Made by a program: the position numbers and the translations under genes. From assembly GCF_000829375.1 (NCBI RefSeq), contig NZ_AP014624.1:4092001-4156000 (forward strand): a stretch of 64,000 nt of DNA. The letters run 5' to 3'. Shown here one piece after another: positions 24,389 to 53,165 of the stretch (the stretch's first letter is position 1; every line of letters begins with the position of its first letter). The notes beneath the pieces are model-generated. The model worked only from the letters and a program-made list of their open reading frames with translations, had not been told where the DNA came from and did no database searches. The DNA is from Chryseobacterium sp. StRB126. Lineage in GTDB: Bacteria; Bacteroidota; Bacteroidia; Flavobacteriales; Weeksellaceae.

Positions 24389-24600
24389 TTTTATTAATAA
24401 CATAATTAATATTTCTTTAACATTTTTTACGAATAATTCACAAAATCCCGATTATCATTTCTCCTCTATAGTATTCCAATTCAGTTCCATGAGGAATGAG
24501 TCTAAAATTTCACGATATTTTCAAGCCCGTATTTTGTCTATTTTACAGCCAAATTCATATGTTATCTTTTTGTAATATAACAAAAACAAATCTCTTCTTT

Positions 24601-24632
24601 TTGAAATATTTTATTTTTTATTCCTATCTTTG
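24601..24632 (+). promoter_or_regulatory. Bacteroidota-type promoter of the polyketide operon
   Basis: TTG at 24601-24603, a 21-base spacer and TATCTTTG at 24625-24632 match the Bacteroidota sigma factor consensus. Transcription would begin near 24640, giving an untranslated leader of nearly 500 bases before the first synthase gene. No equally good match was found closer to the gene. Confidence 0.65.
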
Positions 24633-24906: not shown

Positions 24907-25065
24907 ATGAAAAACTTGACCATTATTAGGCTAATGCCTTTTGAAAAGCCGGACACAACCTTTAACTCTAATTACTTTAGAGCTAATCACATGCTGTTGA
25001 AAAGTCATCAACAAACAAACTTTACCATTAAAAATCTAATAGAAACCAATTTTATGATTTTGTAA
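24907..25065 (+). CDS. 52-codon leader ORF, diverged partial copy of the synthase start
   Basis: The predicted peptide starts MKNLTIIRLMPFEKPD, while the synthase at 25133 starts MKNVTIIGLTPFEKPD: 13 of 16 residues agree, and the DNA is nearly identical over about 48 bases. After that the two sequences diverge completely and the small frame stops at 25063-25065. It is either the remnant of a partial duplication or recombination at the 5' end of the synthase gene, or a translated leader peptide. It has no recognisable function of its own, and whether it is translated cannot be told. Confidence 0.55.
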   Translation: MKNLTIIRLMPFEKPDTTFNSNYFRANHMLLKSHQQTNFTIKNLIETNFMIL

Positions 25066-25132: not shown

Positions 25133-28100
25133 ATGAAAAACGTAACCATTATTGGACTAACGCCTTTTGAAAAGCCGGATGTCAACCTTATGCCTAAATT
25201 GCATCAGGCGGGTATATTTCCTGTCCTCAGCTTAGGCCAAGAGTTAACGACCGCCCAGGCAGCAATTAGTCAACTTGAAGAAACAAACTTACCTTCTTAT
25301 GGTATTTATGTTTCCAATGAAAAACTATCAGCAATTCAACTTCCCGAAAATGTAAGATTTGCGATCTTACCATTCGGAATGACAGTTTCTCAAAATTCAA
25401 ATCTGGATATCATTTATCAGGTAACCAGTTTGGAAGAAGCTAAACAAGCTGAACAATCAGGAGCAAAAGGAATTATCATCAAAGGAAACGAAGCAGGAGG
25501 CCAAATTGGCTACGAATCTACCTTTGTATTATTCCAAAGAATTATCAATGAAATCAAAAGCATTCCGGTTTGGGTACAGGGGGGAATAGGACTCCATACT
25601 GCCTCAGCTGTGAAAGCCTTAGGAGCAACAGGAGTTGTTCTGGATAGCCAACTTGCTTTATTCCCTGAAAGTTCTGTACCAAAAGACATAAAAGATTTAT
25701 GTTCAAAACTTAACGGAACTGAAACTAAAATCATTGCCAATCACAGAGTATTGGTAAGACCTAATTCTCCTGCATTACCGGATGACATCAATGCTGAAGA
25801 TCTTAAACAATATTTTACAGATCTTGATATCAGCAAGAGCTACATCCCTATGGGCCAGGATATTTCGCTGGCAACTGATCTGTACGAAGAGTTCAGAACC
25901 CTGAAAAAAATGGCTTTCGGACTTAAAGAAGCTATGCATGGTCATCTGAAGCAAGCAAAAGCACTTCAGGTTATCAATCAAAACAATGCATTAGCACAGG
26001 AACTTGGTTTAAAATATCCAATTGCACAAGGTCCAATGACCCGTGTAAGCGATGTTCCCGGATTTGCCAATGCAGTAGCAGAAGCCGGAGCTTTACCTTT
26101 TGTAGCTTTATCATTACTTACAGGTAAATCAGCGAAGTCTTTGGTAATGGATACAAAAGAACTAGCAGGTAACAAAACATGGGGAGTAGGTATTTTAGGT
26201 TTTGCCCCTCAGGAACTAAGAGATGAACAGACTTCTTACATCCTAGAAGCCCAGCCGCCTGTAGTTTTAATTGCAGGCGGAAGACCCGCACAGGCTAAAG
26301 TATTTGAAAAAGCAGGAATAAAGACATTCCTGCACGTTCCGTCTCCTGCCCTATTGGATATTTTCCTTAAAGAAGGAGCTAAGAGTTTTATTTTTGAAGG
26401 CCGTGAATGCGGTGGACACGTTGGTCCACTATCAAGTATGGTGCTTTGGGAAAAACAAATCGAACGTATATTAAAAGAAGACCATCCGGAAAATATCAGT
26501 GTATTTTTCGCGGGTGGAGTCCATAATGATTTCTCAACAGCATTCGTTTCCATTATGGCTGCTCCATTAGCTGCCAGAGGTGTGAAAGTGGGTGTTTTGA
26601 TGGGAACCGCTTATCTGTACACTCAGGAAGCTGTACAAACAGGAGCTATCCAGGAAGAATTCCAGGTACAGGCTATGCAGGCTAAAGATACAGTCTTATT
26701 AGAAACAGCTCCGGGACATGAAACCCGTTGTTTAAATACAGCATTTGCTAACCACTTCAATACCGAGAAAGCCAAACTTATGGCAGCCGGAACAGACAAA
26801 AAAGTAGTATGGGAGCAATTGGAAAAATTAAACGTAGGCCGTTTAAGAATCGCAGCTAAGGGAATTGAACGCCAGGGAGACCAATTGGTAAATATTCCTA
26901 AAGACGATCAGCTAGACCTTGGAATGTACATGATCGGACAGATTGCCACCATGCAAAACAAGGTCCTTACCCTTGAAGAGCTTCACCAAAACGTTAGTAT
27001 TGGGAATTACGAATACATCCAGGAAGCAGAATTATCGGAATTACCTACATCCAGCGAAAAACCATTAGATATAGCAATTGTTGGAATGGAATGTATTTTC
27101 CCGGGTGCTAAAAATCTGGATGAATTCTGGAGAAACATCATTTTAGGAAAAGACAGCGTTACTGAAGTTCCGGACGAAAGATGGAATAAAGACCTTTATT
27201 ACAAACCGGATTCAGACGAAGCGGATGTATCGCATTCAAAATGGGGAGGCTTCATTCCGAAAATTGATTTTGATCCATTGGCATTTGGTATTCCACCACA
27301 GTCTCTAGCCGCTATTGAGCCTACGCAATTGCTTACTTTATTGGTGGCAAAACGTGCCATGGAAGATGCAGGATATGGTGAAAAACATATTAATAGAGAA
27401 AACATCTCTGTCATTATTGGAGCTGAAGGTGGTAACGACCTTGCCAACAGCTATAGTTTCAGAGGATATTATAAGCAGGTCTTCGGAGAACTTCATGAAG
27501 AAGTAAAAGAGGTCTTCCCACATACTACAGAGGATTCTTTCCCGGGTATTTTGGCCAATGTGATCGCAGGTAGGATTACGAACCGTCTGGATTTAGGAGG
27601 AAGAAACTTTACCGTAGATGCAGCATGTGCTTCGTCTTTAGCAGCCTTAGATTTAGCTTGTCAGGAACTTGTATTAGGAAAATCTGATATGGTTCTTGCC
27701 GGAGGTGCAGATTTACATAACGGAATCAACGATTACCTGATGTTCTCCAGTACTCATGCCCTTTCCAGAAAAGGAAGATGTGCTACATTTGACAGTGAAG
27801 CAGACGGAATCGCCCTAGGAGAAGGAATTGCTATCCTTGTTTTGAAAAGATATGAAGACGCTATCAACGATGGCGACCGTATCTACTCTGTAATCAAAGG
27901 AGTGGGCGGATCCAGTGATGGTAAAGCTCTTGGCTTAACTGCTCCTAGAAAAGTAGGTCAGGTAAGAGCATTAGAACGTGCTTATACCCAAGCTGGAATC
28001 AGTGCTGCAGCTGTAGGATTAGTAGAAGCTCACGGTACCGGAACTGTTGTTGGAGACAAAACAGAATTAAGTGCCTTAACCAATCTATTCAGCCGTTCAG

Positions 28101-31100
28101 GAGCATTACCGGGACAGACGCATTTAGGTTCTGTGAAGACCCAAATCGGACATACCAAGTGTGCTGCAGGATTAGCAGGTTTAATTAAAGCTTCTCTTTC
28201 TGTTTATCATGGAGTGAAACCTCCTACCCTTCACCTTAAACAACCGAATGCTTATTATAACGCACAAACCAGCCCTTTCTCTTTCCATGCAGAAACAGGA
28301 TTATGGACTGAAAAGAATCGTTATGCAGGAATCAGTGCTTTTGGATTTGGAGGAACAAACTTCCACACGGTAATTGCTAACCATCCGAAAAAAGATGATT
28401 CTATTGCCATGCAGTCGTGGCCTTCAGAATTATTTGTATTCCGTGGAGATAATTATGAGGAGGCTAAAGCACAATCTGGTCAGATCAAAGCTTTATTGGA
28501 TATCAATGATGGAATTCCATTAAAAGATATTGCGTACAGTTTAAGTATTGTTTCAGAAAAACCAATTCAATTCAGTATCGTTGCAGATACCGCTGAGGAC
28601 TTAATGATGAAGCTTGAACTTGTATTATTAGGAATTGAAACTAAAGATACATTCACTGTTAATAAGAAAGAAGGTAAGGTAGCCTTTACATTCCCTGGGC
28701 AAGGAAGCCAGAGAATCAACATGGCTCGTGATCTATTCGTAGTCTTCCCGGCTATGCGTAAGATTATCGACAATTACCCTGAGCTTGAAAAAGTAGTTTT
28801 TCCTTCTACAACATTCAATGAAGCGGATTTAAAGCAACAGAAAGAAACCATTAAAGACACCCGTTTAGCACAACCGCTTTTAGGAATTGTTGATCTTGCA
28901 CTGGCTAAATTCTTAGAATCATTAGGAATTATTCCTGATATGCTGGCTGGCCACAGCTATGGTGAATTACCGGCTTTATGTTTCTCAGGAGTATTTGCAG
29001 AAGACCAATTGGTTGATTTAAGTATCCGGAGAGCACAGTCTATCCTGAACTCAGTAGAAGGCGGAGATCCGGGTTCAATGTTAGCGGCTAGTGCCACTCA
29101 TGAACGTTTACAGCCGATCATTGCGAAAGTGGAAGGATGTTATCCGGTTAATTTCAATGCACCTACACAATGTGTTATCGCTGGAAGTACGGAAGCCATC
29201 AATAAGCTACTGGAAGTCCTTAAACAGGAAGGTATTTCTGCTAAGAAATTAGAAGTGGCGTGTGCATTCCACAGCCCATTATTGGCAAAATCAAAAGAGT
29301 TGTATGCTGACGTATTAAAAGACATTCCTTTCCAGGAGATGCAGATCCCTGTATGGTCTAATACCACAGCAGAAGTATACCCATCGAATCCATCAGACAT
29401 CAAAGAAAGACTGACTGAGCATTTGGTACAGCCCGTAAGATTCGTAGAGCAGATGCAGTCGATGTATAACGATGGAGCAAGAATCTTCATCGAGGTAGGA
29501 CCAGGAAAAGTCCTTACAGGATTGGCAAAATCATGTCTTGAAAAAGACCAATTGACTTTATATGTTGAAGACAGCAGCCGTAATAAGTTCACTCATTTAC
29601 TTTGTATGTTGGCACAGTATTTAGGAACAGGGCGCAGCTTCAATATTGAAAAACTTTTCGATGGCCGTTTCGTTCAGCTTGTGGATATCAATCAGCCTGA
29701 ATTGTACAAGAAAAGCCCTGCCATCTGGCGTGTGAACGGACAAGCTGCACATCCGACAACAGGTTCATTGCCTGCTAATGGTGCACTCCCTATCATAAAC
29801 CCTATTCCTATGAACAATTTTACCAATCATAATACGCAAGCTCCTGCTCCGGAAAGCTTATCTACAGCTGAACGTATGCTGCAGGAATATTTAAACAGTA
29901 TGAAACTAATGATACAGGCACAACGTGATGTGATGCTTTCCTTTATGGGACAGAATCCTCAGATCAGCCCAATGCCTGCTTACAATACTCCAATGCCAGC
30001 ACCTGCTCCTGAACGTACTATTCCGGTACAACCGGTTCAACAGGAAAGAGCTGTGGCTGCTCCTGCCGTTGCTGTAAAGGCATCTCCAACAAGAGATATC
30101 AAAGCATTATTACTACAGGTGGTAAGCGATAAAACAGGATACCCACAGGAAATGCTGGGCATGGAAATGGACCTTGAAGCTGATTTAAGTATCGACTCTA
30201 TTAAAAGAGTGGAAATCATCGGAACACTTCGCAGCGAGCTGGGAACATTAGCCAATGGAAATACCAACGAAGATATGGTAATGGAACAATTGGCAGCCAT
30301 CAAAACTCTAAGTGGATTAGTTTCATGGCTTACTGAATTCTCTGGAGCAGATGCCACTCCAGCAACTCCTGAAAAAAATGGAACAACTGCTGAAGCGGTT
30401 TCAAAACCACAGGCAAAATCTACTTTATCATTAGAAGACCTTCAAAATGCTATCTTAAATATCGTAAGCGAAAAAACAGGATATCCGAAAGAAATGCTAG
30501 GCCTTGACTTAGATTTAGAAGCAGACCTTAGTATTGATTCCATCAAGCGTATGGAGATCATTGCAGATCTTAAAAACAAGATCGGTTTCGGAGAAAATCT
30601 TGAACAGGCTGATGATGTGATGGAAAAATTAGCAGCCATTAAAACCCTTCGCGGATTGGCAAGCTGGATCAGTGAAATGAGCGGTGAAACCACTGAAATA
30701 AAAAACGAAGTAAAGGAAGTTAGCACTCCTGAAGCTACGAATAATGTATTATCTCGTCTCCGTTTTGACATCACGCCTACAGATGCTTCTTCAATACAAA
30801 ATACAGAAGTTCTTCAGGGAAAACGTTTCGCCATTACTCAGGATGACACCCAACAAACCTCAGCCATCAAAACTGAACTGGAAAAACATGGTGCTATCGT
30901 AGAATTGGTAGATGCAGACAAAGACCTTTCACATGTTGACGGATTAATCATGCTAGACCTATTCTCAGCAACTGATAAACCAAGCATTATCGATCACGTT
31001 GATTTAATTAAAAAACTGGATTTCGATAGAGTAAAATGGGTCTATTTAATTTCTGATATTCCGGCTCATCTTCAGGATATTTCTGATGCAAGCATTCTAC

Positions 31101-32170
31101 GTCATCACCAAGGATATCCGGGACTTTTCAAAAGCTTGGCAAGAGAATTCGATCATACCACTTGCAGATTAATCAGTTTAAGTACTCCTCAGGAAGTAGA
31201 TCAGATTGCTGAAATCACTTTAAAGGAAATATTAACCAACGATAAACCTGCTGAAGTTATTTATAAAAACGAAACAAGACATAAGGTAGATATCATCCCT
31301 TCTCCATTGTCTACAAGTTTAAATAAAGTCCACATTCAGCTAGATCAGAAATCAGTGGTATTGGTATTGGGAGGTGCACAGGGAATCACTGCAGAACTGG
31401 TAAAACACATGTCTCAGGCTTATCCATGTACTTATATTTTAGTAGGAAGATCGGCAGACCCAAGAAATGAGGTTTCTGCGAAAGAATTGGAAGCAATGAA
31501 GACTAAAGAGGAAATCAGAGCTTATTTGATTAAATCCGGAAAATTCACTTCCCCTGCTGAGATTGAAAAAGAAACCACAAAGGTTTACAAAAACAATCAG
31601 ATCCTACGTACAATCCGTGATATGGAAGCGCTTGGAAATACCATCGTTTATCAATCTTTAGACCTTTGTGACGAAGAAGGATTAAGCAACCTAATCAGCA
31701 GTATTTATGAAAAATACAGCCGCTTAGATGGAGTGATCCACGGAGCAGGTCTTTTAGAAGATAAATTATTCAAACAAAAGACGACCTCATCTTTCGGACG
31801 TGTATTCGATACCAAAGTAAAACCACTTCGTGTATTGGCTGAACAACTTCGTACAGACTGTCAGTTCGTTGTTTTATTCTCAAGTATTGCATCCGTATAT
31901 GGTAACAAAGGCCAGACAGATTATGCGGCTGCCAACAGTGTACTGGATGATTACGCTAACGCTCTGAATAAAAGACTAAAAGGAAAAGTAATCTCCATCA
32001 ACTGGGGACCTTGGAAAGGAGCAGGAATGGTTTCTTCCACCCTTGAATCAGAATACGAACGTAGAGGAATTTCTATGATCCCATTGGATGAAGGAAAAGA
32101 AATTTTCCTTAACGAAATAAAATATGGAACTGAAAGCCAAGTGCTTATCATGTCAGGAAATAATTGGTAA
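25133..32170 (+). CDS. PUFA-type polyketide synthase: NMO-NMO-KS-AT-ACP-ACP-KR
   Basis: A 2345-residue multidomain synthase. Order: a degenerate-looking TIM-barrel nitronate-monooxygenase-like half (about 1-260, GNEAGGQIG, VWVQGGIGLHTASAVKALGA); a canonical NMO/PfaD-type flavin enoylreductase (about 285-565, YPIAQGPMTRVSD, ECGGHVG); a ketosynthase (about 643-1070) with active Cys832 (DAACASS), His967 (EAHGTG) and the GHTKCAAG histidine; a malonyl-type acyltransferase (about 1180-1490) with GHSYG Ser1275 and AFHS; two acyl carrier domains with PUFA-type DSIKR motifs at Ser1689 and Ser1803; and a ketoreductase (about 2075-2345) with a GGAQGI nucleotide loop and Tyr2264. It corresponds to PfaA plus PfaD of PUFA synthases fused in one chain. 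All catalytic residues checked are present. First gene of the operon. Confidence 0.9.
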   Translation: MKNVTIIGLTPFEKPDVNLMPKLHQAGIFPVLSLGQELTTAQAAISQLEETNLPSYGIYVSNEKLSAIQLPENVRFAILPFGMTVSQNSNLDIIYQVTSLEEAKQAEQSGAKGIIIKGNEAGGQIGYESTFVLFQRIINEIKSIPVWVQGGIGLHTASAVKALGATGVVLDSQLALFPESSVPKDIKDLCSKLNGTETKIIANHRVLVRPNSPALPDDINAEDLKQYFTDLDISKSYIPMGQDISLATDLYEEFRTLKKMAFGLKEAMHGHLKQAKALQVINQNNALAQELGLKYPIAQGPMTRVSDVPGFANAVAEAGALPFVALSLLTGKSAKSLVMDTKELAGNKTWGVGILGFAPQELRDEQTSYILEAQPPVVLIAGGRPAQAKVFEKAGIKTFLHVPSPALLDIFLKEGAKSFIFEGRECGGHVGPLSSMVLWEKQIERILKEDHPENISVFFAGGVHNDFSTAFVSIMAAPLAARGVKVGVLMGTAYLYTQEAVQTGAIQEEFQVQAMQAKDTVLLETAPGHETRCLNTAFANHFNTEKAKLMAAGTDKKVVWEQLEKLNVGRLRIAAKGIERQGDQLVNIPKDDQLDLGMYMIGQIATMQNKVLTLEELHQNVSIGNYEYIQEAELSELPTSSEKPLDIAIVGMECIFPGAKNLDEFWRNIILGKDSVTEVPDERWNKDLYYKPDSDEADVSHSKWGGFIPKIDFDPLAFGIPPQSLAAIEPTQLLTLLVAKRAMEDAGYGEKHINRENISVIIGAEGGNDLANSYSFRGYYKQVFGELHEEVKEVFPHTTEDSFPGILANVIAGRITNRLDLGGRNFTVDAACASSLAALDLACQELVLGKSDMVLAGGADLHNGINDYLMFSSTHALSRKGRCATFDSEADGIALGEGIAILVLKRYEDAINDGDRIYSVIKGVGGSSDGKALGLTAPRKVGQVRALERAYTQAGISAAAVGLVEAHGTGTVVGDKTELSALTNLFSRSGALPGQTHLGSVKTQIGHTKCAAGLAGLIKASLSVYHGVKPPTLHLKQPNAYYNAQTSPFSFHAETGLWTEKNRYAGISAFGFGGTNFHTVIANHPKKDDSIAMQSWPSELFVFRGDNYEEAKAQSGQIKALLDINDGIPLKDIAYSLSIVSEKPIQFSIVADTAEDLMMKLELVLLGIETKDTFTVNKKEGKVAFTFPGQGSQRINMARDLFVVFPAMRKIIDNYPELEKVVFPSTTFNEADLKQQKETIKDTRLAQPLLGIVDLALAKFLESLGIIPDMLAGHSYGELPALCFSGVFAEDQLVDLSIRRAQSILNSVEGGDPGSMLAASATHERLQPIIAKVEGCYPVNFNAPTQCVIAGSTEAINKLLEVLKQEGISAKKLEVACAFHSPLLAKSKELYADVLKDIPFQEMQIPVWSNTTAEVYPSNPSDIKERLTEHLVQPVRFVEQMQSMYNDGARIFIEVGPGKVLTGLAKSCLEKDQLTLYVEDSSRNKFTHLLCMLAQYLGTGRSFNIEKLFDGRFVQLVDINQPELYKKSPAIWRVNGQAAHPTTGSLPANGALPIINPIPMNNFTNHNTQAPAPESLSTAERMLQEYLNSMKLMIQAQRDVMLSFMGQNPQISPMPAYNTPMPAPAPERTIPVQPVQQERAVAAPAVAVKASPTRDIKALLLQVVSDKTGYPQEMLGMEMDLEADLSIDSIKRVEIIGTLRSELGTLANGNTNEDMVMEQLAAIKTLSGLVSWLTEFSGADATPATPEKNGTTAEAVSKPQAKSTLSLEDLQNAILNIVSEKTGYPKEMLGLDLDLEADLSIDSIKRMEIIADLKNKIGFGENLEQADDVMEKLAAIKTLRGLASWISEMSGETTEIKNEVKEVSTPEATNNVLSRLRFDITPTDASSIQNTEVLQGKRFAITQDDTQQTSAIKTELEKHGAIVELVDADKDLSHVDGLIMLDLFSATDKPSIIDHVDLIKKLDFDRVKWVYLISDIPAHLQDISDASILRHHQGYPGLFKSLAREFDHTTCRLISLSTPQEVDQIAEITLKEILTNDKPAEVIYKNETRHKVDIIPSPLSTSLNKVHIQLDQKSVVLVLGGAQGITAELVKHMSQAYPCTYILVGRSADPRNEVSAKELEAMKTKEEIRAYLIKSGKFTSPAEIEKETTKVYKNNQILRTIRDMEALGNTIVYQSLDLCDEEGLSNLISSIYEKYSRLDGVIHGAGLLEDKLFKQKTTSSFGRVFDTKVKPLRVLAEQLRTDCQFVVLFSSIASVYGNKGQTDYAAANSVLDDYANALNKRLKGKVISINWGPWKGAGMVSSTLESEYERRGISMIPLDEGKEIFLNEIKYGTESQVLIMSGNNW

Positions 32171-32189
32171 CCCTCTGTATACACTAAGC

Positions 32190-35100: not shown

Positions 35101-36455
35101 CTCATGTAGCGGATATGGAACCGGTAATCCCGATGACCATGATCTTTGAGCAGCTGGCAGAAATTGCAGAAGCGGAAATCCCGGGAACACAGGTTCATAA
35201 AATCATGAACGTAAGTGTATTCCAATGGATGAACGTAGCGCAGCCTTTTGAGAAAACTGTGAAAGGACAATGGCGTGGTGAAAATCATGCGTATCTGGAT
35301 ATTGAGAACTTCGCTAATGCAGAAGTCACCTTAAAATCCGGTCCTGTTCCTACTCCAACCTTCAATCTTTCCATTGGTGATCTTTTACCAATTGAAAAAA
35401 CCCCTGAAGAAATCTACGATATGCACATGTTCCATGGTGACAAATACCAGGGAATTACTGAAGTTTCAGCGGTTGGAACCAAAGGAATTATAGGAAAGAT
35501 CAAAGGAAATGGCGGAAAAGGGTCTCTGCTGGACAATGCCGGACAGTTATTCGGGCTTTGGTTACAGCTAACTTTAGTGAAAGACCGTATCGCCTTCCCG
35601 GTGAAGATCAGAGACATTGAATTCTTCGGAGACATGCACGATCAGGAAGGTATTTTTGAATGTACCTGTATGCAGACTGAGCTTAATGATGAATTTGCCA
35701 TTGCTAATATCGTTCTTAAAAGAGACGGAAAAGTATGGTGTGCCATCACAGGCTGGCAGAACAGAAGACTGGAAATTGATGCCGCCTTATGGAATGTTTC
35801 CATGTCACCATTGCATAACCGCCTTTCTGAAGAGATTGCTCCTGAAGTATTCTTCTTCCACCAGGCGTATACCAGAGTCGCTTCATGGGATTTTATCCTG
35901 AAAAGATATTTCAACCAGACGGAAAAACAGCATCATCAACAATTATTACCGAACAAGAAGAAAAACTGGATGGTAAGCCGTGTGGCGGTGAAAGATGCCG
36001 TGAGAAACCTTCTTCGTCAGGAAAAAAATCTTGCCTGCTTCCCGATCACCTTTGAGATCCGTTCCGATGAAGTGGGGAAACCTTACCTCATCAGTGATTT
36101 TACAGAAGATATTCATATTTCACTCGCTCACAAAGGAAAAGAAGCCGTGGGGATTGCGAGATATGGCAAATCTGTAGGAATCGATATGGAACTCATGGAA
36201 GAACGCAGCTCAGGATTCTATGATCTGGTATTTACAGACCATGAATTAGCCTTATTAAAAGGAAAAGATCAGGCAGAATGGACCACCCGTTTCTGGGTAG
36301 CGAAGGAAGCCTACGGAAAATTCTTAGGAACCGGACTGAAAGGGAATCCAAAAGCCTTTGAAGTAGAACAAATAAAAGACGATCACTTGTGGATCAACAA
36401 CATTGAAATCAAAACTGTTAAACATAAAAATTATATTATCGGATGGACACTGTAA
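32190..36455 (+). CDS. Polyketide synthase subunit: KS-AT-DH-phosphopantetheinyl transferase
   Basis: A 1421-residue protein. The ATG at 32190 (MKKTDVAVVGLSC) is chosen because it directly begins the ketosynthase fold, leaving a 19-base gap to the first synthase gene. Domains: ketosynthase (1-430) with Cys207 (DAACASA) and His342 (EAHGTG), so it is active in form and not a chain-length-factor; a short acyltransferase (about 530-860) with GHSLGE Ser605 and GFHSP; a PS-DH dehydratase hotdog region (about 945-1205) with HPYLIDHSL (His955); and a C-terminal Sfp-type phosphopantetheinyl transferase (about 1230-1421) with GIDMELMEE and WVAKEAYGK. The last domain would load the phosphopantetheine arm on the operon's carrier domains. 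No carrier domain is present, so it must work with the ACPs of the first gene and the free ACP. Confidence 0.88.
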   Translation: MKKTDVAVVGLSCVFPGAQDAQTFWQNIVNKVDSTQSAPADRIDPVHFSDATNPVDRFYCKRGGFIPDYEFNPTTFGILPLAVEGTEPDHLLTLDLVQKALEDAGVFQKKTSLEKAGIIIGKGNYTGPGATRAIEIVRTGEQISSLLQELLPQVSSADIEKVKHAFQERKGRFAADTAMGLIPNLVASLVANRFDLGGVAFTVDAACASALIAVDHAVQELQRGRSDMMIAGGVHTGQNAAFWSIFAQLGAMSRQEQIKPFSRDADGLLIGEGCGFVVLKRLEDAVRDQDKIYAVIKGVGVSSDGNGTSVMSPSVKGQLKALEQAWINADLDKNKVGYLEAHGTGTPLGDKTELQTLAQFFGKEEAAPAAGIGSVKSNIGHAMPAAGIAGLIKTCLALHHDTLPPTLYCENPTADMQNTRFEPVQEAKNWSKTGLPKVAAVNAFGFGGINAHVVLEGYDMPKKDKVLLLARPTQAELVSALQNNDTTLGEGDFRIAIFDPTPARVEKALKIVSKNLIWKNKQDIWYTSTPLLKDGGKVAFVFPGLDGLAKGEVDSVSRYFGLTAPIETEGEGLLTDALNIFNNCSILDNSLKKLGIIPDMNAGHSLGEWLAGYSSELAEANSVKALIDVLNPETFELKDSKFIAIGAGINVVQPFITEISDLYISNDNCPNQVILCGSNAALDELVPLLKSKQIFHQVLPFQSGFHSPFIADKLDVILAGMEKAQFQKTKIPLWSATTLEPYPADQAAIRKLSAEHLVEPVRFRELTDKLYEEGARVFIQVGTGGLIGFIDDTLKGKAFSTIPSSVPTRSALAQLQRVVASLFVEGKTIALDFLEVQQHSKKAQGKGIKLELGSPIIRNFKEVKALAQAFETPKQYTASASAMTAKSGHPLVQAFQDNVNDMIRMQEEVLTLFQNRPEITIPRPAQVAPVAQHAAPQAPRSTTFSKDLYVTLESHPYLIDHSLLRQPKGWAHVADMEPVIPMTMIFEQLAEIAEAEIPGTQVHKIMNVSVFQWMNVAQPFEKTVKGQWRGENHAYLDIENFANAEVTLKSGPVPTPTFNLSIGDLLPIEKTPEEIYDMHMFHGDKYQGITEVSAVGTKGIIGKIKGNGGKGSLLDNAGQLFGLWLQLTLVKDRIAFPVKIRDIEFFGDMHDQEGIFECTCMQTELNDEFAIANIVLKRDGKVWCAITGWQNRRLEIDAALWNVSMSPLHNRLSEEIAPEVFFFHQAYTRVASWDFILKRYFNQTEKQHHQQLLPNKKKNWMVSRVAVKDAVRNLLRQEKNLACFPITFEIRSDEVGKPYLISDFTEDIHISLAHKGKEAVGIARYGKSVGIDMELMEERSSGFYDLVFTDHELALLKGKDQAEWTTRFWVAKEAYGKFLGTGLKGNPKAFEVEQIKDDHLWINNIEIKTVKHKNYIIGWTL

Positions 36456-36742
36456 ACGCAACATTAAAAATGAACCACGAAGAACTTTTTACTTTATTAA
36501 AAGGTTTTATTACTGAAGTGATAGGTGCTGAATTTGTAGAGGAGATGGACATTACTCCGGAAAGTTCATTCACCAAAGATCTTGAAATGGACAGCATTGA
36601 GATTGTCTCTTTCTCTGAAAAGATTAAGGCGCATTTTGGCGATCAGATCGACTTTACAGGTTGGTTATCTTCTATGGATCTTGACCAGCTTATTAATCTT
36701 GACCTTAGTATGATCATCAATTATATCTACGAATGCCAATAA
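36443..36742 (+). CDS. Free acyl carrier protein
   Basis: A 99-residue acyl carrier protein with the attachment motif EMDSIEIVSF (Ser51 counted from the first ATG). A second ATG nine codons in (MNHEELF) gives a 90-residue protein of more usual length. The first ATG overlaps the end of the previous gene by 13 bases, typical of translational coupling. The DSIE motif differs from the DSIKR of the PUFA-type carrier domains, so it is probably used by a different partner, such as the hydrolase, glycosyltransferases or acyltransferases that follow. This last point is inference. Confidence 0.85.
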   Translation: MDTVNATLKMNHEELFTLLKGFITEVIGAEFVEEMDITPESSFTKDLEMDSIEIVSFSEKIKAHFGDQIDFTGWLSSMDLDQLINLDLSMIINYIYECQ

Positions 36743-37515
36743 TCACTGTCAATAACAGACAAGTTCATATACAGGAACTCAATAAAGGTGCCGAACAAAC
36801 CGTGGTCTTAATCCACGGGATGTTCAGTAACCTGTCCATTTATTATTTTAATATTGCCCCTATTCTGGCAAAACATTTCCATGTGGTGATGTACGATCTG
36901 AAAAGTCACGGGATGAGTGAACGCTTTTTGGATGGGTACGACCTTGAAAACATGTCATCCGATCTGATGAGTTTAATGGATCACCTTCAACTGGAAAAAG
37001 TACATCTTGTAGGCTATAGCTTCGGTGGTCTTATTGCTTTGAAAACAGCATTGAAATACCCTGAACGCGTTAATCAACTGGTGGTGATGGAAGCTCCGGA
37101 TCCTCAGGACGAAAAAGCCCGTAACATCATTGATGAGTACAGCAAGGAATTCCTTGAGCATTATGTAGCCAATTTTACAGATACTACCAAAGTGCAGATG
37201 GGCAAAAGACAAATGGAAAAGAACCATCGTATGTATGAGTTTCTGTTTAATCAAACCAGCATCAAAGCAGATATGATTAAGGAAAAACATTTCCTTGGTG
37301 AAGCCGATTTCAATGGATTGACGGCTTCCACGTTATTGCTTTACGGTGCTGATTCCAACTGCAGACCTACAGGAGAATGGCTGCAGGCTCAAATCGGTTC
37401 ATCCGAACTTGAATTAATCTCCGGCGATCACAATATCCCTATCCAGGAACCTCAGCTGATCGCAGAGACGATCGCTCAGTTTTTATCTAATATCTTAACG
37501 AAGAACCATGGCTAA
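36733..37515 (+). CDS. Alpha/beta hydrolase, possible chain-release thioesterase
   Basis: A 260-residue alpha/beta-hydrolase. Visible are the oxyanion-loop motif VLIHGMFSN, the nucleophile elbow GYSFGG (Ser96), and a late catalytic histidine near SGDHNIP. It has no signal peptide, so it is cytosolic. It overlaps the ACP gene by 10 bases and the glycosyltransferase gene by 8 bases. In this position it may release the acyl chain from the carrier protein or move it to an alcohol acceptor. Family alone would also allow an esterase or haloperoxidase-like role. Confidence 0.8.
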   Translation: MPIITVNNRQVHIQELNKGAEQTVVLIHGMFSNLSIYYFNIAPILAKHFHVVMYDLKSHGMSERFLDGYDLENMSSDLMSLMDHLQLEKVHLVGYSFGGLIALKTALKYPERVNQLVVMEAPDPQDEKARNIIDEYSKEFLEHYVANFTDTTKVQMGKRQMEKNHRMYEFLFNQTSIKADMIKEKHFLGEADFNGLTASTLLLYGADSNCRPTGEWLQAQIGSSELELISGDHNIPIQEPQLIAETIAQFLSNILTKNHG

Positions 37516-39910
37516 ATTTGCATTTATAGTTCCACCCTTGACAGGACATGTCAATCCTACCCTAAGCATCGGTGCTACGCTGTTGGAAAGAGGACATGAA
37601 GTAGCCTGGATCAGTCTTGACCCTACTTTAGGGGCTAAACTTCCGGAGGGCGGAAAATTATTATTGATCCAATATGATCAGACCGACGAAGAAAAGAAAG
37701 AAAGCGAACAGTATCTCGATATTATTTCCAAAAAAGTGGTCTACGGAATCGACAGCGTGAAGTTCCTTTACGAGGAAGTTCTTATTCCACTGAACAGACA
37801 TTACTATAAAGGAATTGTTGCTTTATTAAAAACATACCAACCCGATTTGATTATCGGTGACCACCAGTTATTTGCTGCTCCGGTAGCTGCCAAAGCATTA
37901 GGTATTCCTTACGCAACTTCAGTTACCGCTCCGGCTGCCATTAAAATCATGAATGAACTGCCTAAAGTTCACGAATGGGAAGTGAATCAAATCCTAGATT
38001 TACAGAAAGAGCTTGGTTTTCATGAAGAACGTTCTCTGGCAACTTCAGACCTGTTGACGCTTGTTTTAACCTCAAATTATTTCTTTGGGGAAATGGAAGA
38101 TCTAGCTCCTCAATATCAATTCACGGGACCAGTTCTTACAGAGCGTCGCATCTCTTGTGAATTTGATTGGGAAAGATTAAAAAATGCTACCAACAAAAAG
38201 ATTTTAGTAAGCATCGGAACCACTTTCGATCACGATCATAAAAAAGCATTCTTCCAAAAGGTTGTAGATGCTTTTAAAGATGAAGATTTAACGGTTGTAG
38301 TGGTTTCTGACCCACAACTTTTCGAGCAATGGCCGGATAACTTCATGGTGTACCAGCAGGTTCCTCAGTTGGATCTGTTACCTCATCTTGATGGGGTGGT
38401 TTGCCATGGCGGTCACAATACCGTTTCTGAAACTTTATCCAACGGAATTCCTTTGGTGGTAATTCCTATTGCGTATGATCAGTCGCACGTTGCAGGACGT
38501 GTTGTGCGTACAGAAGCGGGTGAAAGACTTAATTTCAACAGATTTAAAGCCAATCATCTGAGAGAGGCAGTACAACAAATATTAAATAACCCGGGCTATC
38601 GTGAGGCAGCTCAAAAAGTAGGACAATCTTTTATGGAAGCAGGAGGAGCATCTACAGCCGCTAATTTATTGGAAGAAGCCATCACAAAGACTTCAAAACC
38701 GGAAAAACCGTCTAAATTCTTATTTGTTATTCCCCCATTTTTCGGACATGTGAGCCCTACATTAAGTGTGGGAGCCAGTCTGATTGCCCGTGGCCATGAA
38801 GTAAAATGGTTCGGAATTACGCCTTTAGACAGCAAACATATTCCGGAAGGAGGCTCTTATTTTTATCCTGAAGAAGATCTTATTCCGTATCAGGAAGAAA
38901 TCGCCCGCATTTTAAAAAGACAGGATGACGGTCCGGCTTGTTCAGGCCCTGAAGTGATGAAACTTGCTTTGGAAGAAACCTATGTTCCTTTCGCTAAAAT
39001 GATGATGCCGGGATTAACCCGATTAACAGAAAGCTGGATGCCTGATGTGATCGTAAATGACTGTATTACTTTTGGCGGTGCGCTTTTCGCTCACAAACAC
39101 AACATTCCTTGTGTAACGACCACGCCTGTTCCACCGGACGTTATGGGTGACACTGAAAAAAGTGCCCCTAAAATCTGGGAATGGCAGCAAAACCTCATCA
39201 AAGACCTGCAAAAAGAAGTAGGCATTCATGAAGAAGGTATTTATATCCATTCGCATAAACTGAATATGGTATTTACATCACAAGCCTTTGCCGGTTTTGA
39301 TACCGTACCATCTCACATGAAATTTGTAGGCCCTGTAAAAGGTCGTCCGAACGACGCTCCTTTTGACTGGGATAAATTAAATGCTTCCACCACTCCAAAG
39401 ATCTTTGTATCGCTGGGAACTTTATTGGTGGACATCAGAAAAGCATTTTTTGAAAAGATTATTGCAGCATTTAAAGATCAACCGGTAACGGTGATTGCCG
39501 CTACTCCACCGGAAATCTTTGAAGAATGGCCGGAAAACTTTATTGTCAACAGCTTTGTCCCTCAATCTGCGGTAATGCAAAGAATGGATATGGTAATCTG
39601 CCACGGTGGTTTCAATACCGTAAATGATACTTTCCGTAACGGGTTACCGATGTTGATCACGCCTATTGCTTATGATCATTTCCATATTGCGAAATTAATT
39701 GAGCAGGCAGGTTGCGGAATCAGCATCCGATACAAGAGACTGCGTGTAGAAGCACTTCGTGAAACCGTTTTTGAATTACTGGAAAATCCTAAATACAGAG
39801 CTGCCGCTCAGGAAGTTCGAAATACCTTCAATCTTGCCGGAGGTAATGATAAAGCGGTAGAATTGTTAGAAAACTTTGTACAGGAACATTCCACATTAGC
39901 GTCTGTATAG
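37508..39910 (+). CDS. Two fused GT1 (MGT-type) glycosyltransferases
   Basis: An 800-residue protein made of two complete UDP-glycosyltransferase (GT1, MGT) units joined head to tail. Unit 1 spans about residues 1-397 and begins MAKFAFIVPPLTGHVNPTLS. Unit 2 spans about 402-800 and begins SKFLFVIPPFFGHVSPTLSV. Each has the donor-binding signature near its end: CHGGHNTVSETLSNGIP near residue 300 and CHGGFNTVNDTFRNGLP near 700, each followed by a conserved PIAYD motif. GT1 enzymes transfer a sugar from a nucleotide donor to a lipid, polyketide or carotenoid hydroxyl. Two units in one chain suggest two successive sugars or two acceptor positions. The gene is coupled by overlap to the hydrolase, and the next gene follows after 3 bases. 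Confidence 0.9.
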   Translation: MAKFAFIVPPLTGHVNPTLSIGATLLERGHEVAWISLDPTLGAKLPEGGKLLLIQYDQTDEEKKESEQYLDIISKKVVYGIDSVKFLYEEVLIPLNRHYYKGIVALLKTYQPDLIIGDHQLFAAPVAAKALGIPYATSVTAPAAIKIMNELPKVHEWEVNQILDLQKELGFHEERSLATSDLLTLVLTSNYFFGEMEDLAPQYQFTGPVLTERRISCEFDWERLKNATNKKILVSIGTTFDHDHKKAFFQKVVDAFKDEDLTVVVVSDPQLFEQWPDNFMVYQQVPQLDLLPHLDGVVCHGGHNTVSETLSNGIPLVVIPIAYDQSHVAGRVVRTEAGERLNFNRFKANHLREAVQQILNNPGYREAAQKVGQSFMEAGGASTAANLLEEAITKTSKPEKPSKFLFVIPPFFGHVSPTLSVGASLIARGHEVKWFGITPLDSKHIPEGGSYFYPEEDLIPYQEEIARILKRQDDGPACSGPEVMKLALEETYVPFAKMMMPGLTRLTESWMPDVIVNDCITFGGALFAHKHNIPCVTTTPVPPDVMGDTEKSAPKIWEWQQNLIKDLQKEVGIHEEGIYIHSHKLNMVFTSQAFAGFDTVPSHMKFVGPVKGRPNDAPFDWDKLNASTTPKIFVSLGTLLVDIRKAFFEKIIAAFKDQPVTVIAATPPEIFEEWPENFIVNSFVPQSAVMQRMDMVICHGGFNTVNDTFRNGLPMLITPIAYDHFHIAKLIEQAGCGISIRYKRLRVEALRETVFELLENPKYRAAAQEVRNTFNLAGGNDKAVELLENFVQEHSTLASV

Positions 39911-39913
39911 CCT

Positions 39914-41197
39914 ATGAACCAACCTATTAAAAGAAGATTATTATTTGGTGAGCGAATGTTACTGGGAGACGGAACAGAACCGTTCAATGCGGTGATCCCT
40001 TTCAGGCTCAGAGGTACCTTTACACTGAAGGATATCCAGCAGGCTTTGGCTCAGATCCAGCAAAAACATCCATGGTTAAGAGCGCTTATTGCTCACGATG
40101 ATCAAAATATCCCGTGGTTTGATGTTCCTGAAAACCCGATCTCCATTCCGGTGCGAATTATCGCCAGAAAAGGAGAAGATCAGTGGCAGGAAGAATCCAA
40201 AAGGGAATGGAATACTTTATTCGATCCTAAAAAATTGCCTCTTATCCGGTTTGTCTGGATCAAGGGGGAAGACGTTTCTGACATGCTGTTTGCGTTCCAC
40301 CATTGTTTATGCGATGGTGGTTCTGCAATGGCTTTCCTTTATGAATTTTTAAAAGTATTGGATAATCCAAAAGCCGATATCGGGATAGAAAGTCCTATTT
40401 TAGGCATTCAGGATGTGGTTCCGGCGAATATTTTAAACAGCCGAAAGCAAAAATTAAAAGCTAAATTCATCGGAAGATTAGCGGCTACAGCCATTAAGGT
40501 TATTCCTACCGGTAAAAAATCCATTGATCGTCAAAATGATTATTTAATCAACTGGAAAGTGGATGAAACTGTAAGCCAGCAACTGATTTCCTATTGTAAA
40601 TCCAATGGTGCTACCGTGAACACGTTCTTAAGTGCCGCTTTACTTCAGGCATTCAAAAAAGTAAAAGGAACCGGAGCTTTTAATAAAGTATCCTGTCCTG
40701 TAGATATCAGACGTTTTGCTAACCAGATCAAAAACGACCATATTTTTGCTTTTGGATTGATGATCGTAGTTTCTGCCAATGAAAAGCTGAGCTTTATAGA
40801 AAATTTACATGCCATGCAGGCTTCTGTAGAGCGTAAAACCTCTAAGCTCGATCCTTATATCACCATGATGGTGATGGAATCCGGGCATGATGCGCTGAAC
40901 AATTTCACCAAGCTTTTAAAGAACGGAAAATCCTCTAACGACTGTATGTTTTCCAATCTGGGACGCATTCAGATCCCGCATGAGTATAAAGAATTTTCGG
41001 TGGATACTATTTTCAGTCCATCGGTCATTGGGCCGTTAGGGAATACGACAACAATGGTAGTTTCAACGTACCGTGGGAAAATGGATTTTTCATTTGTAGG
41101 AAGTGAAGGATATCTGCCTTATACCGACGCCATGGCGATTCGTGATGAAGTTATGAAGATCATTAAAACCCAACTGGAATATATCGCCGTATCATGA
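39914..41197 (+). CDS. PapA/condensation-type acyltransferase 1
   Basis: A 427-residue protein of the CoA- or ACP-dependent acyltransferase superfamily (condensation, chloramphenicol-acetyltransferase and PapA fold). The catalytic motif is HHCLCDG at residues 129-135, with the general-base histidine at 130. The late FSNLGRIQIP segment is also typical of PapA/alcohol-acyltransferase proteins. PapA enzymes acylate hydroxyls of glycolipids and polyketides. In this operon it would add an acyl chain to the sugar or the polyketide. It is directly followed by a paralogue with an ATGA overlap. Confidence 0.8.
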   Translation: MNQPIKRRLLFGERMLLGDGTEPFNAVIPFRLRGTFTLKDIQQALAQIQQKHPWLRALIAHDDQNIPWFDVPENPISIPVRIIARKGEDQWQEESKREWNTLFDPKKLPLIRFVWIKGEDVSDMLFAFHHCLCDGGSAMAFLYEFLKVLDNPKADIGIESPILGIQDVVPANILNSRKQKLKAKFIGRLAATAIKVIPTGKKSIDRQNDYLINWKVDETVSQQLISYCKSNGATVNTFLSAALLQAFKKVKGTGAFNKVSCPVDIRRFANQIKNDHIFAFGLMIVVSANEKLSFIENLHAMQASVERKTSKLDPYITMMVMESGHDALNNFTKLLKNGKSSNDCMFSNLGRIQIPHEYKEFSVDTIFSPSVIGPLGNTTTMVVSTYRGKMDFSFVGSEGYLPYTDAMAIRDEVMKIIKTQLEYIAVS

Positions 41198-42444
41198 TCA
41201 AAAGAAAACTAATGATGGTGGAGAGGATCATGTATGTAGATCCCGAAACGCCCGTAAACTGCGTATTTGCAGCTAAAATAAAAGGAGAAATTCCGGAGCA
41301 GAATTTTAAAACTGCTCTGGAAAAAATCCAGCAGAAGCATCCTATGCTGAGAGTGGTCGTAGATAGCAAAAGTGAGAAATATCCTTTTTTTAAAGAAAAA
41401 AAAGACATCGCTCCTATCCCACTCCGCATTGTAGAAAGAAAAACGGACGAAGACTGGCTTACAGAATCCCAGAAAGAATGGAAAATCTTATTTGAGGAAG
41501 AAAATACACCTCTCGCCCGTTTAGTTTGGGTAAGAGGACAGAACGTTTCTGAGGTCTTTTGGGTAATGCCCCATTGCATCTCAGACGGAACCACCGGAGT
41601 GACTTTGATGAAGGAAATTCTTCAGCTTTTGGATGATCCTTCTTTGGAATTAGAACCTTATGAGGCTTTCCAATCTGTAGATGAGTTTTTACCCTCTAAC
41701 TTTAATGTAAAAAGTAAGAAATTCAAAGCCAAACTTTATCTGACGTTTGCCAGGTTCTTCTTTATGCTACAGCAAAAAAGTAAAAAGAGAAACCTTGGAA
41801 AAGACTATGTCCTTCACCAAAAACTGGATCCGGCAACCACGACTCAAATTACTGAAAGATGTAAAGCCAATGGCATTTCCGTACATGCTTTACTTTGTTC
41901 TGCGTTCATGCAGGCATTCCAGGAAGTAAAAGGGAAAGAAGCCAAAGGAAAAGTGATCAGTCCGGTGGATGTGCGTCATTTTATTCCGGAGATCAAAGAA
42001 GATCATTTATTTGCTTTTGCCCCAACGGTTGACCTTGCGATTAAAAAAGGAAGTTCCGATCTGTTGAACAATGCCAAACAGATTAAAGAAGACCTTACTC
42101 AGAAAATAGGAAAAATGGAAGCCCGCGAACTGCTGTGGATGGGTGAACAGATGCACCCGATTGTGGACCGTATGATCTCCATGCTTAAATCAAGCAATGG
42201 CGGCCATGATGTAACCCTATCCAATATGGGTAGGATCAACATCCCGAACGAATATAAAAACTTCAGCATTGAAACCATTTTCAGCCCTACGGTAGCCTTC
42301 CCATGGCTGAACTCAAATACTTTGGTGACTACCACGTACAACCATCAGATGGATTTTATATTTTTGTCCAACGAAGACTTCCTTCCCAAAGCGGAAGCCG
42401 CCAAAATAAAAGAGAAAGCCATAGCGCTAATGACCGCCTCATGA
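41194..42444 (+). CDS. PapA/condensation-type acyltransferase 2 with variant active-site motif
   Basis: A 416-residue paralogue of the preceding protein, aligned over its whole length. The motif reads PHCISDG at residues 126-132: the first histidine of HHxxxDG is proline, but the general-base histidine (127) and the Asp-Gly are kept, so it is likely still active. It has the same late SNMGRINIP segment. It overlaps gene 1 by ATGA and the following membrane gene by ATGA. Two different enzymes would let the pathway attach two different acyl chains or acylate two positions. Confidence 0.78.
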   Translation: MIKRKLMMVERIMYVDPETPVNCVFAAKIKGEIPEQNFKTALEKIQQKHPMLRVVVDSKSEKYPFFKEKKDIAPIPLRIVERKTDEDWLTESQKEWKILFEEENTPLARLVWVRGQNVSEVFWVMPHCISDGTTGVTLMKEILQLLDDPSLELEPYEAFQSVDEFLPSNFNVKSKKFKAKLYLTFARFFFMLQQKSKKRNLGKDYVLHQKLDPATTTQITERCKANGISVHALLCSAFMQAFQEVKGKEAKGKVISPVDVRHFIPEIKEDHLFAFAPTVDLAIKKGSSDLLNNAKQIKEDLTQKIGKMEARELLWMGEQMHPIVDRMISMLKSSNGGHDVTLSNMGRINIPNEYKNFSIETIFSPTVAFPWLNSNTLVTTTYNHQMDFIFLSNEDFLPKAEAAKIKEKAIALMTAS

Positions 42445-42992
42445 AATTGAAATTTAAGCCGAAGCCACCTAAAAAGCTCAAAAAAACTACCCTCAAACGC
42501 TTTCTCATCAAGCGTACGATTTATTATGTCCTTCCCAATGTATTTTTCAATTTCATCATCGCCTATGCCAGCTTCAAAGAATTAGGCTACACCCATTTCT
42601 TCTCCGGTGAGCAGAACCTGGCCCGCCTTACCTTACCCATGGCTTTATTTCTCCCCGTTGTCCTCACCATAGACATCCTCAAAAGAGTAACCGATGCCGC
42701 CGGACAAGGCGCCATTGAGTTTACCGTAGACGAACAATTGAATATTAAAAAATTAATGACCAAGCTGAGTATCCTGCATGGCGTGATTACCTGTTCTTTG
42801 GTATTAGTTATGCTTTTCTTAGGGCAATATAATTTTTCTAAGGATTATAAACTGGATGCTACGGCGATGGCTGTAGTAGTGGGAACACTGGCTGGAATTT
42901 TGTCTGTAGTGTTTGTGTATTTGCCGGTGTGGAGGCTGAGGAGGTGGATGTGTAGGAGGGTAAATACAATGACTTTAGATATGAATAAATAA
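42441..42992 (+). CDS. Small four-TM membrane protein, last gene of the polyketide operon
   Basis: A 183-residue protein with a strongly basic N-terminus (MKLKFKPKPPKKLKKTTLKR) and about four hydrophobic segments. No family was recognised. The ATG at 42441 overlaps the preceding stop (ATGA), so it belongs to the operon and probably acts with the product at the inner membrane, e.g. anchoring or handing on the lipid. No transport motif is visible. A longer frame starting at 42303 overlaps the previous gene and is not credible. Confidence 0.7.
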   Translation: MKLKFKPKPPKKLKKTTLKRFLIKRTIYYVLPNVFFNFIIAYASFKELGYTHFFSGEQNLARLTLPMALFLPVVLTIDILKRVTDAAGQGAIEFTVDEQLNIKKLMTKLSILHGVITCSLVLVMLFLGQYNFSKDYKLDATAMAVVVGTLAGILSVVFVYLPVWRLRRWMCRRVNTMTLDMNK

Positions 42993-44283: not shown

Positions 44284-44295
44284 TTTATTATCCTT

Positions 44296-44601
44296 TTAAA
44301 TTATATCTGAATCATCTCCAAAATGCTCCTTAAGCATTCTTTCTAATAATTGGATGGCTTTGGATTCTGCAAATTTATCTCCATCAGAATATAAATCAAA
44401 AATTAGAACTCCTTTTTTCTGATCTATACTATATTTGAAATAAAAGTGATCAATATATTGTCCTCCTTTATGAGAAAGCAGCTCATCAGAGTCATATTCC
44501 CAACTACGAATTTTCTTATGATCTATTTTATCAAACAAATTTTGAATCAACTTTCCCGGATTGGCAGTTGTTAATTTCAGTGAATCAATTTTGTTTTTCA
44601 T
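44296..44601 (-). CDS. Unrecognised 101-residue protein in the restriction operon
   Basis: A small soluble protein without recognised domain. The pattern is an N-terminal helix (KLIQNLFDKIDHKKI), a beta-rich centre (YIDHFYFKYSIDQKKGVLIF) and a C-terminal helix. It lies 30 bases behind hsdR and 12 bases before the DUF5655 gene on the same strand, so it is surely cotranscribed. It may be a regulator or an accessory part of the restriction system; nothing in the sequence decides. Confidence 0.6.
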   Translation of the reverse strand: MKNKIDSLKLTTANPGKLIQNLFDKIDHKKIRSWEYDSDELLSHKGGQYIDHFYFKYSIDQKKGVLIFDLYSDGDKFAESKAIQLLERMLKEHFGDDSDII

Positions 44602-44631
44602 ATTATTAGTTTAATTATATACTTCTGAATA

Positions 44632-49982: not shown

Positions 49983-49986
49983 TTTA

Positions 49987-53162: not shown

Positions 53163-53165
53163 TGC

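Follow-up and report, generated by a model that had tools for sequence, protein, structure and literature searches.

A putative lipid synthase operon of eight plus-strand genes lies at positions 25133-42992 of a 64,000-nucleotide stretch of the Chryseobacterium sp. StRB126 genome (contig NZ_AP014624.1, positions 4,092,001 to 4,156,000; hereafter the window). The genome consists of 1 contig of 5.50 Mb. The operon encodes two megasynthase chains related to the Pfa family of polyunsaturated fatty acid (PUFA) synthases, followed by a free acyl carrier protein (ACP), an alpha/beta hydrolase, a tandem glycosyltransferase (GT), two PapA-like proteins (Pap1 and Pap2) and a small membrane-type protein. 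The operon is real and conserved, and it is probably functional. Its gene set, gene order, domain set and the conservation of its active-site residues are direct observations. Our preferred interpretation, held with moderate confidence, is that the operon is a dedicated glycolipid assembly line yielding a sugar-bearing, esterified long-chain hydroxy-acid lipid, a structure that we infer. An earlier note on the window had described eight tightly packed plus-strand genes forming one operon for a Pfa-family lipid synthase with its own phosphopantetheinyl transferase (PPTase), glycosyltransferase and PapA-like genes. All eight genes were recovered where it had placed them, and this general picture holds.

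Conservation and distribution of the operon

Each of the eight genes is a single open frame, and neighboring frames overlap or nearly touch, with listed gaps between open reading frames (ORFs) of -47 to +3 nt. Conservation was assessed in 82 loci selected for holding the second synthase gene (66 plus L076 from one set of 68, and 15 of a second set of 20). All eight genes were detected in 78 of these loci, from Chryseobacterium, Flavobacterium seoulense, Sphingobacterium, Pedobacter and kin. The four incomplete loci comprise a contig end (L012), a broken ACP frame (L062), many broken frames with the membrane protein undetected (L072) and an ACP frame missed by the ORF filter (L122). The glycosyltransferase is fused in 65 of the 82 loci, encoded by two adjoining genes in 16 (Pedobacter and g89 loci) and unclear in L072, while Pap1 is duplicated in L038, L042, L052, L115 and L116. 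Operon order is conserved over two orders of Bacteroidota and is kept in orthologues down to about 60% identity for the first synthase chain and 26% for the membrane protein. Pairwise ratios of nonsynonymous to synonymous change (dN/dS) between the window and L013, L016 and L018 were 0.00-0.14 in 23 of 24 comparisons, the membrane protein of L018 giving no value. The persistence of gene order at low identity together with these low ratios argues that the arrangement is not due to chance.

The operon has a patchy distribution, being common in two groups and rare elsewhere. The loci nearest to the window by the second synthase protein belong to Chryseobacterium, with up to 98% identity. Within the genus, the second chain occurs in 106 of 173 genomes (best E = 0), at full length in 102 and in pieces in 4, and the remaining 67 genomes yielded weaker matches only. 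In the order of a further genome, G514, an E-value threshold of 1e-70 was passed by 60 of 300 genomes in 3 of 17 genera. Relatives with 62-82% identity, a few of them truncated or in pieces, were found in 59 of these 60, and the match in G788 has 36% identity over the ketosynthase (KS) alone. A class-wide sample is sparser still, with 9 of 390 genomes passing and a full-length second chain only in the window's genome and G514; the glycosyltransferase was found in 2 of 395 genomes.

Domains and active sites of the two synthase chains

The first chain (P0001, 25133..32170, 2345 aa; all operon coordinates are on the plus strand) is a PfaDA-like megasynthase. It exceeds the cut-off of the PfaA family TIGR02813 (1041.8 bits, cut-off 1010.1), a PfaA-type chain of KS, acyltransferase (AT), tandem ACPs and ketoreductase (KR), and it carries two NMO domains in front of these. 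The chain was aligned over 84 rows, 80 from Bacteroidota along with Streptomyces, Actibacterium, Beijerinckia and Methylosinus. NMO copy 1 (25133..25942, approximate limits) does not conserve the position of the catalytic histidine, which is Gln in the window, and the column holds L 44, K 15, Q 10, W 6, R 3, N 2, H 1, S 1, C 1 and gap 1. Judged by this alignment, the catalytic histidine is lost from copy 1, leaving a pseudo-domain. NMO copy 2 (25991..26848), a FabK/PfaD-like enoyl reductase (ER), retains the FabK-type histidine in 84 of 84 rows, and its nearest solved chains are enoyl-ACP reductases, FabK among them. KS1 (27068..28237) keeps an invariant Cys-His-His. The malonyl-type AT1 (28685..29542) has invariant Ser, His and Arg, the Arg lying in the malonate-binding stretch in 85 of 85 rows when the positions following the active Ser are scanned; a further Arg column beside it is variable. 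The two tandem ACPs (30197..30541, from first to second phosphopantetheine Ser codon, 1689 and 1803) each retain the Ser in 83 of 84 rows, the gaps being Methylosinus for the first ACP and Streptomyces for the second. Two IDSIKR motifs are present in 80 of 80 full-length orthologues. The tested Ser, Tyr, Asn and Lys positions of the KR (31355..32017) are invariant.

The second, PfaBC-like chain (P0002, 32190..36455) encodes KS2, AT2, a dehydratase (DH) and the PPTase. Its ORF opens at 32124, and comparison with relatives places the start probably at M23 (32190), because many relatives have an in-frame stop within the match upstream of about residue 22 and their ORFs open at residues 21-24. The alignment of this chain holds 83 rows (81 Bacteroidota, Streptomyces and Actibacterium), over which the tested residues of KS2, AT2, DH and PPTase are invariant, as are those of KS1, AT1 and KR over the 84 rows of the first chain. 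KS2 (32199..33413) has an invariant Cys-His-His, with the Cys in 83 of 83 rows, which rules out a degenerate KS or one of the chain length factor (CLF) type. AT2 (33957..34535) keeps the Ser of GHSxG and the His and lacks the malonate-binding Arg, a simple positional scan after the active Ser finding no Arg in the stretch in 83 of 84 rows. The DH (35016..35873, approximate limits) has an invariant His and DxxxQ and falls below the Pfam threshold (PS-DH 18.6 bits, cut-off 23.7). A structure prediction for the DH-PPTase part (pLDDT 72.9, modest) matches the polyketide synthase (PKS) dehydratases MlnB, CurF and CurK, plus Sfp, and by this predicted fold the dehydratase is of the double-hotdog PKS kind. 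The PPTase (36171..36425) belongs to the ACPS family by Pfam and has an Sfp-like fold matching 4mrt. No FabA family was among the Pfam matches up to E 5, with HMMER filters dropping most weak matches, and in P0002 the Pfam domain search returned a single KS with no second KS or CLF.

A KS tree of 39 rows, with no rows for named HglE, PfaB, C. gleum or Chitinophaga, grouped KS1 with Streptomyces KS1 (support 100/100). At a deeper node, KS1 joins Actibacterium, Beijerinckia, Methylosinus and Rhodobacteraceae SC52 with weak support (83/65). KS2 grouped with the KS2 of Streptomyces (100/98) and of Actibacterium (98/96), the latter placement being less sure because of a long branch. The earlier note had proposed a comparison with PfaC, and in this tree KS2 lies outside the clades of Persicobacter rows presumed to be the PfaC KS and CLF, which were assigned from their position in unannotated records. 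The functions of PfaA to PfaE had also been thought to be compressed into the two chains. This view is contradicted by the lack of a KS-CLF pair and of two FabA dehydratases, by the intact KS2 and by NMO copy 1 without its histidine. The proposed domain string itself stands for both NMOs, KS, AT, two ACPs and KR of the first chain, for KS, AT and PPTase of the second and for the downstream ACP, hydrolase, GT1 and PapA-like proteins; only the DH needs qualification, being sub-threshold by Pfam and PKS-type by predicted fold.

Free acyl carrier protein and tailoring genes

The free ACP (36443..36742, 99 aa) retains its Ser in 81 of 81 rows. Over 60 loci, synonymous change in its gene is 0.227 compared to 0.35-0.50 in the other seven genes, and none of 2096 equal-size windows elsewhere in the operon matches this low value. 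RNA structure was considered as a cause and rejected, as no stable fold was found (z-score -0.04). The following gene encodes the alpha/beta hydrolase (36733..37515, 260 aa), whose nucleophile Ser is invariant (87 of 87 rows).

The tandem GT1 protein (37508..39910, 800 aa) contains two GT units and lies above the curated MGT family cut-off (TIGR01426 390.8 bits, cut-off 260). Its best structural match is the bacterial glycosyltransferase 10zg, with YjiC and oleandomycin glycosyltransferases lower in the list. Over 82 rows for each half, Streptomyces included, both halves keep the tested His and acidic residues save single Asp/Glu exchanges. At the donor site, the N-terminal half has the pair Asp-Gln (82 of 82) and the C-terminal half the pair Asp-His (81 of 82, the exception being the single GT of Streptomyces with Gln). 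In plant glycosyltransferases, such a Gln/His change can alter sugar choice. The earlier suggestion of up to two sugars is thus plausible, since both halves keep the tested motif residues and the donor site differs between them.

Pap1 (39914..41197) is a condensation-superfamily acyltransferase-like protein with the motif HHxxxDG in 86 of 86 rows. Pap2 (41194..42444) is a PapA_C-containing relative with PHxxxDG; Pro replaces the first His in 79 of 80 rows, and the remaining His, Asp and Gly of the motif are present in all 80. The Pap1 model (pLDDT 89.0) has 8s6l as its top match (TMq 0.82), followed by condensation and epimerization domains of nonribosomal peptide synthetases (NRPS), with PapA5 (1q9j) at rank 6. 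The entry 8s6l is titled AzeD dehydratase and bears the molecule name phthiocerol/phthiodiolone dimycocerosyl transferase; one review had no whole-word match for AzeD. Given the fold matches of Pap1 and the title and motif of 8s6l, ester formation is likely for Pap1 and less so for Pap2, whose role in acyl transfer appears less certain because PHxxxDG replaces HHxxxDG. The last gene encodes the membrane-type protein (42441..42992, 183 aa), which is conserved in position and matches no Pfam family over cut-off. Its start is probably at 42441, in an ATGA overlap with Pap2, and not at 42303.

Related clusters in other phyla and the association of AT2 with the free ACP

Two Streptomyces plasmids (NBC_00984 and NBC_01243; 49.3% identity over the query) carry genes in the order PfaDA, PfaBC, ACP, hydrolase and GT, then a methyltransferase. 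Both records share ACP and hydrolase accessions and were therefore counted as one lineage. Identities of NBC_00984 to the window proteins are 43% for PfaDA (C-terminal part 30%), 36% for PfaBC, 23% for the ACP (E 2e-15), 30% for the hydrolase and 34/29% for the GT. Actibacterium encodes the two synthase chains together with a free ACP and a hydrolase, and between these last two lies a type I phosphodiesterase-like protein (PF01663; locus L075, 15078-16676, plus strand). In Rhodobacteraceae SC52, an AT-DH-PPTase chain is followed by a small protein scoring 16.9 bits as PP-binding, below the cut-off of 20.8. Beijerinckia (L134) and Methylosinus (L135) have a PfaDA-like chain and a separate DH-PPTase, without AT2. 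By Pfam, Beijerinckia also has two chalcone-synthase-like proteins, and Methylosinus has one gene annotated as KAS III-type. Annotation and a simple short-frame scan (plus strand, 60-199 aa) revealed no free ACP beside the chains of these two; 1 of 15 scanned frames fits a loose motif and was discounted as lying out of frame inside the DH-PPTase gene of Beijerinckia.

In 4 of 4 lineages (Bacteroidota, Streptomyces, Actibacterium and Rhodobacteraceae SC52, the last sub-threshold), the chain with AT2 has a free ACP behind it, and none was seen in 2 of 2 Ars-type loci without AT2. This co-occurrence suggests that AT2 might hand acyl groups over to the free ACP. KS2 was set aside as the partner explaining the free ACP, as in SC52 a likely, sub-threshold ACP lies behind a second chain that contains an AT and no KS. 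A broader scenario, which we consider doubtful, is that PfaDA, PfaBC with AT2, free ACP, hydrolase and GT form a transferable five-gene unit that moved between Bacteroidota and Actinomycetota and gained lineage-specific tailoring genes. AT2 and the free ACP would then be a general off-loading station making sugar-bearing, esterified (possibly dimeric or macrocyclic) lipids, preceded in part of Chryseobacterium by a translated leader copying the first 16 synthase codons.

Proposed product and alternative readings

For the favored glycolipid assembly line, we suggest the following route. The PPTase would prime the ACPs and AT1 would load malonate. KS1, KR, DH and the FabK-like ER would build up a long and largely reduced chain on both ACPs of the first synthase protein. 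AT2, without the usual malonate-binding Arg, might shuttle a finished or starter acyl group between the first synthase chain and the free ACP, and KS2 perhaps adds a last unit that retains a 3-hydroxyl. The hydrolase would release or trans-esterify the chain, the two GT1 units would each put one sugar on a hydroxyl, and Pap1, less surely Pap2, would make ester bonds on the sugar or the chain. The membrane protein may help place the product in the envelope.

Several points weigh against this proposal. Among the Pfam and TIGRFAM matches of the eight proteins there is neither a fatty-alcohol-forming reductase nor a recognized exporter. The association of AT2 with the free ACP draws on two loci without either and on four lineages with AT2, of which two belong to the Rhodobacterales and one has only a sub-threshold ACP. 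The number of cases is small. Searching plasmids with the KS1-AT1 region gave 699 matching records, and 10 of the best 40 were examined. The AT2 of Actibacterium is the sole row with an Arg in the scanned stretch. In the hydrolase, 82 of 87 rows retain the presumed His, with five loci holding a second hydrolase-like frame, and the single candidate catalytic Asp tested is not conserved (51 of 87). MGT-family enzymes act on macrolides too, and family membership therefore does not define the acceptor. For Pap1 and Pap2 alike, the closest solved structure is 8s6l, whose aligned motif is PHxxxDG as in Pap2, and Pap2 may not make esters.

A PUFA is an unlikely product, and as the leading reading it was ruled out by the lack of a CLF and of a FabA dehydratase. 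The score of P0001 above the PfaA cut-off and the paired IDSIKR motifs in all full-length orthologues would fit a PUFA- or polyene-like unsaturated chain that is made first and then glycosylated or esterified. However, P0002 has one KS and no CLF, KS2 falls outside the presumed Persicobacter PfaC KS and CLF clades, and the dehydratase is of PKS type with no FabA match, which leaves such a chain quite unlikely. The operon might instead make a saturated very-long-chain acid in the manner of the Ars fatty acid synthase, the tailoring enzymes joining it to another acceptor, such as a sugar or envelope lipid, with the chain itself unglycosylated. ArsA makes C23-C25 fatty acids according to the available part of the source (PMC4824345), and Beijerinckia and Methylosinus pair a PfaDA-like chain with a separate DH-PPTase and with chalcone-synthase-like or KAS III-type genes. 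We regard this second possibility as unlikely in view of the additional KS2-AT2, free ACP and hydrolase of the operon, its lack of a type III PKS gene and the weak deeper placement of KS1 with the Ars-type rows.

Fattiviracin and cycloviracin are a class of compounds that raises a third possibility, namely glycosylated hydroxy acids joined to each other as esters by the Pap proteins and/or the hydrolase. The five-gene core common with Streptomyces, where a methyltransferase accompanies it, would agree with such a product, but the link is one of chemistry and no gene cluster for these compounds appeared in the literature searched. We consider this outcome improbable. The sugar-bearing, esterified hydroxy-acid lipid remains our preferred product. 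A pathway that occurs in 106 of 173 sampled genomes of the genus, and whose core recurs on Streptomyces plasmids, probably yields a compound relevant to envelope biology or competition.

Upstream region and neighboring features

Upstream of the operon, a candidate promoter of Bacteroidota type, TTTG-N21-TATCTTTG, was matched at 24600..24632 (plus strand) within a strongly conserved block of nine aligned upstream regions. The pattern follows what we take to be the Bacteroidota consensus. It occurs 5 times in the window compared to 2.9 expected by chance; at least 5 occurrences were obtained in 22 of 100 shuffles, which makes the number in the window non-significant. Scans for sigma-70-type sites and terminators found them no more frequent than in shuffles, and an Rfam scan at the gathering threshold found nothing within the operon. 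A 52-codon leader ORF (24907..25065, plus strand) ends 67 nt 5' of the first synthase gene. Its first 16 codons copy the start of that gene (42 of 48 nt identical, thereafter only 31 of 108), and its conservation is codon-periodic. A regex scan found a leader-type frame in 27 of 81 loci, and 22 leader ORFs, the window's included, have exactly 52 codons. Among these 22, dN/dS is 0.18 for codons 1-16 and 0.41 for the remaining codons. Searched against its own genome, the leader matches itself, the synthase start (E 0.008) and one chance-level place (E 0.43).

The window contains further features outside the operon. Two beta-lactamase-family (PF00144) proteins lie near each other at 6372-9613 (minus strand), and a PKD-domain protein of 1666 aa with a Por secretion tail lies at 15739-20739 (minus strand). 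A restriction-modification island at 43375-55517 (minus strand) encodes HsdM, HsdS, two GmrSD-type proteins, HsdR and a DUF5655 protein with a sub-threshold NucS match. A DUF805b RNA (Rfam RF02914, 38.0 bits, gathering 35.6) is located at 60319-60354 (plus strand), directly 3' of a TonB-type outer membrane protein gene. At 60707-63802 (plus strand), a lantibiotic dehydratase with both Lant_dehydr domains is perhaps the start of a lanthipeptide-type cluster.

Comparison with known systems

The literature searched, most of it represented by titles and the beginnings of abstracts, contained no paper giving a product or describing the tailoring set of the operon, in line with the earlier note, which knew of no described product for the exact arrangement. 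Within the same scope, no Chryseobacterium glycolipid with a matching gene cluster was found. A Rhodococcus glycolipid paper was dismissed as a lead, since its accessible part concerns succinoyl-type trehalolipids of different chemistry, and the portions available of C. oranimense and actinomycete genome papers gave no useful lead on the operon.

HglE heterocyst glycolipid systems release their chains by the thioester reductase HglB, and no such release domain is present in the Pfam lists (E 0.001) of the eight operon proteins. The prediction of hglE-type clusters in flavobacteria, made in the earlier note, has a counterpart in print. Region 2.2 of C. herbae (495,527-554,653) carries the antiSMASH label 'hglE-KS, T1PKS, terpene' in the part of the paper available (PMC10459008). 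The C. herbae orthologue L029 (contig NZ_JAOAMU010000002.1, strain pc1-10, 512,485-536,777) appears to lie inside it, provided that region 2 corresponds to that contig. The accessible text of a heterocyte glycolipid paper (PMC11804610) mentions related clusters of PUFA type in genera of Bacteroidetes.

PUFA synthases of the PfaA-E kind resemble the operon in the KS-AT-tandem ACP-KR chain, the FabK-like ER and the PPTase, whereas the operon is without KS-CLF and without the FabA-type DH pair. Ars-type systems share the NMO-KS-AT-ACP-KR chain and the separate DH-PPTase; in contrast to the operon, they have no KS2-AT2, no free ACP that was found, and type III PKS-like genes in place of the tailoring set, no type III PKS partner being among the eight operon proteins by Pfam. 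Within the condensation superfamily, Pap1 shares fold and HHxxxDG with PapA5, and Pap2 differs by PHxxxDG. Fused pfaDA and pfaBC-PPTase pairs were reported in Aquimarina sp. TRL1 and Flavobacterium sp. N502540 and likened to Renibacterium (JACS Au 2026, PMC13291983). As far as the consulted text describes them, these pairs share with the operon the two-chain fusion and the PPTase on the second chain, yet they belong to PKS-NRPS hybrid clusters, whereas the operon combines its pair with GT and PapA-like genes and contains neither an NRPS nor a further PKS. The Streptomyces plasmid core has the same five-gene order as the operon. It differs by one GT, an S-adenosylmethionine-dependent methyltransferase, no PapA-like gene in an incomplete annotation, and one ACP aligned in the first chain as opposed to two.

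The closest precedent might be the Type N secondary lipid synthase, described in 2011 from Chryseobacterium gleum and Chitinophaga pinensis with product unknown (Shulse and Allen, PMC3098273). Both are pfa-like clusters, matched by genus only; the word 'glycosyltransferase' is absent from the main text of that paper, and no PapA-like or hydrolase genes are named in the part available. The split of the genus into 106 and 67 of 173 genomes, the conserved operon limits and the AT2-ACP association make an orphan synthase of the Type N kind a testable question. The product is a well-defined target owing to the conserved tailoring set and the kinship with Streptomyces. Whereas the type of synthase had been cataloged before, our additions are the conserved tailoring genes, the limits of the operon and the core cassette of Streptomyces.

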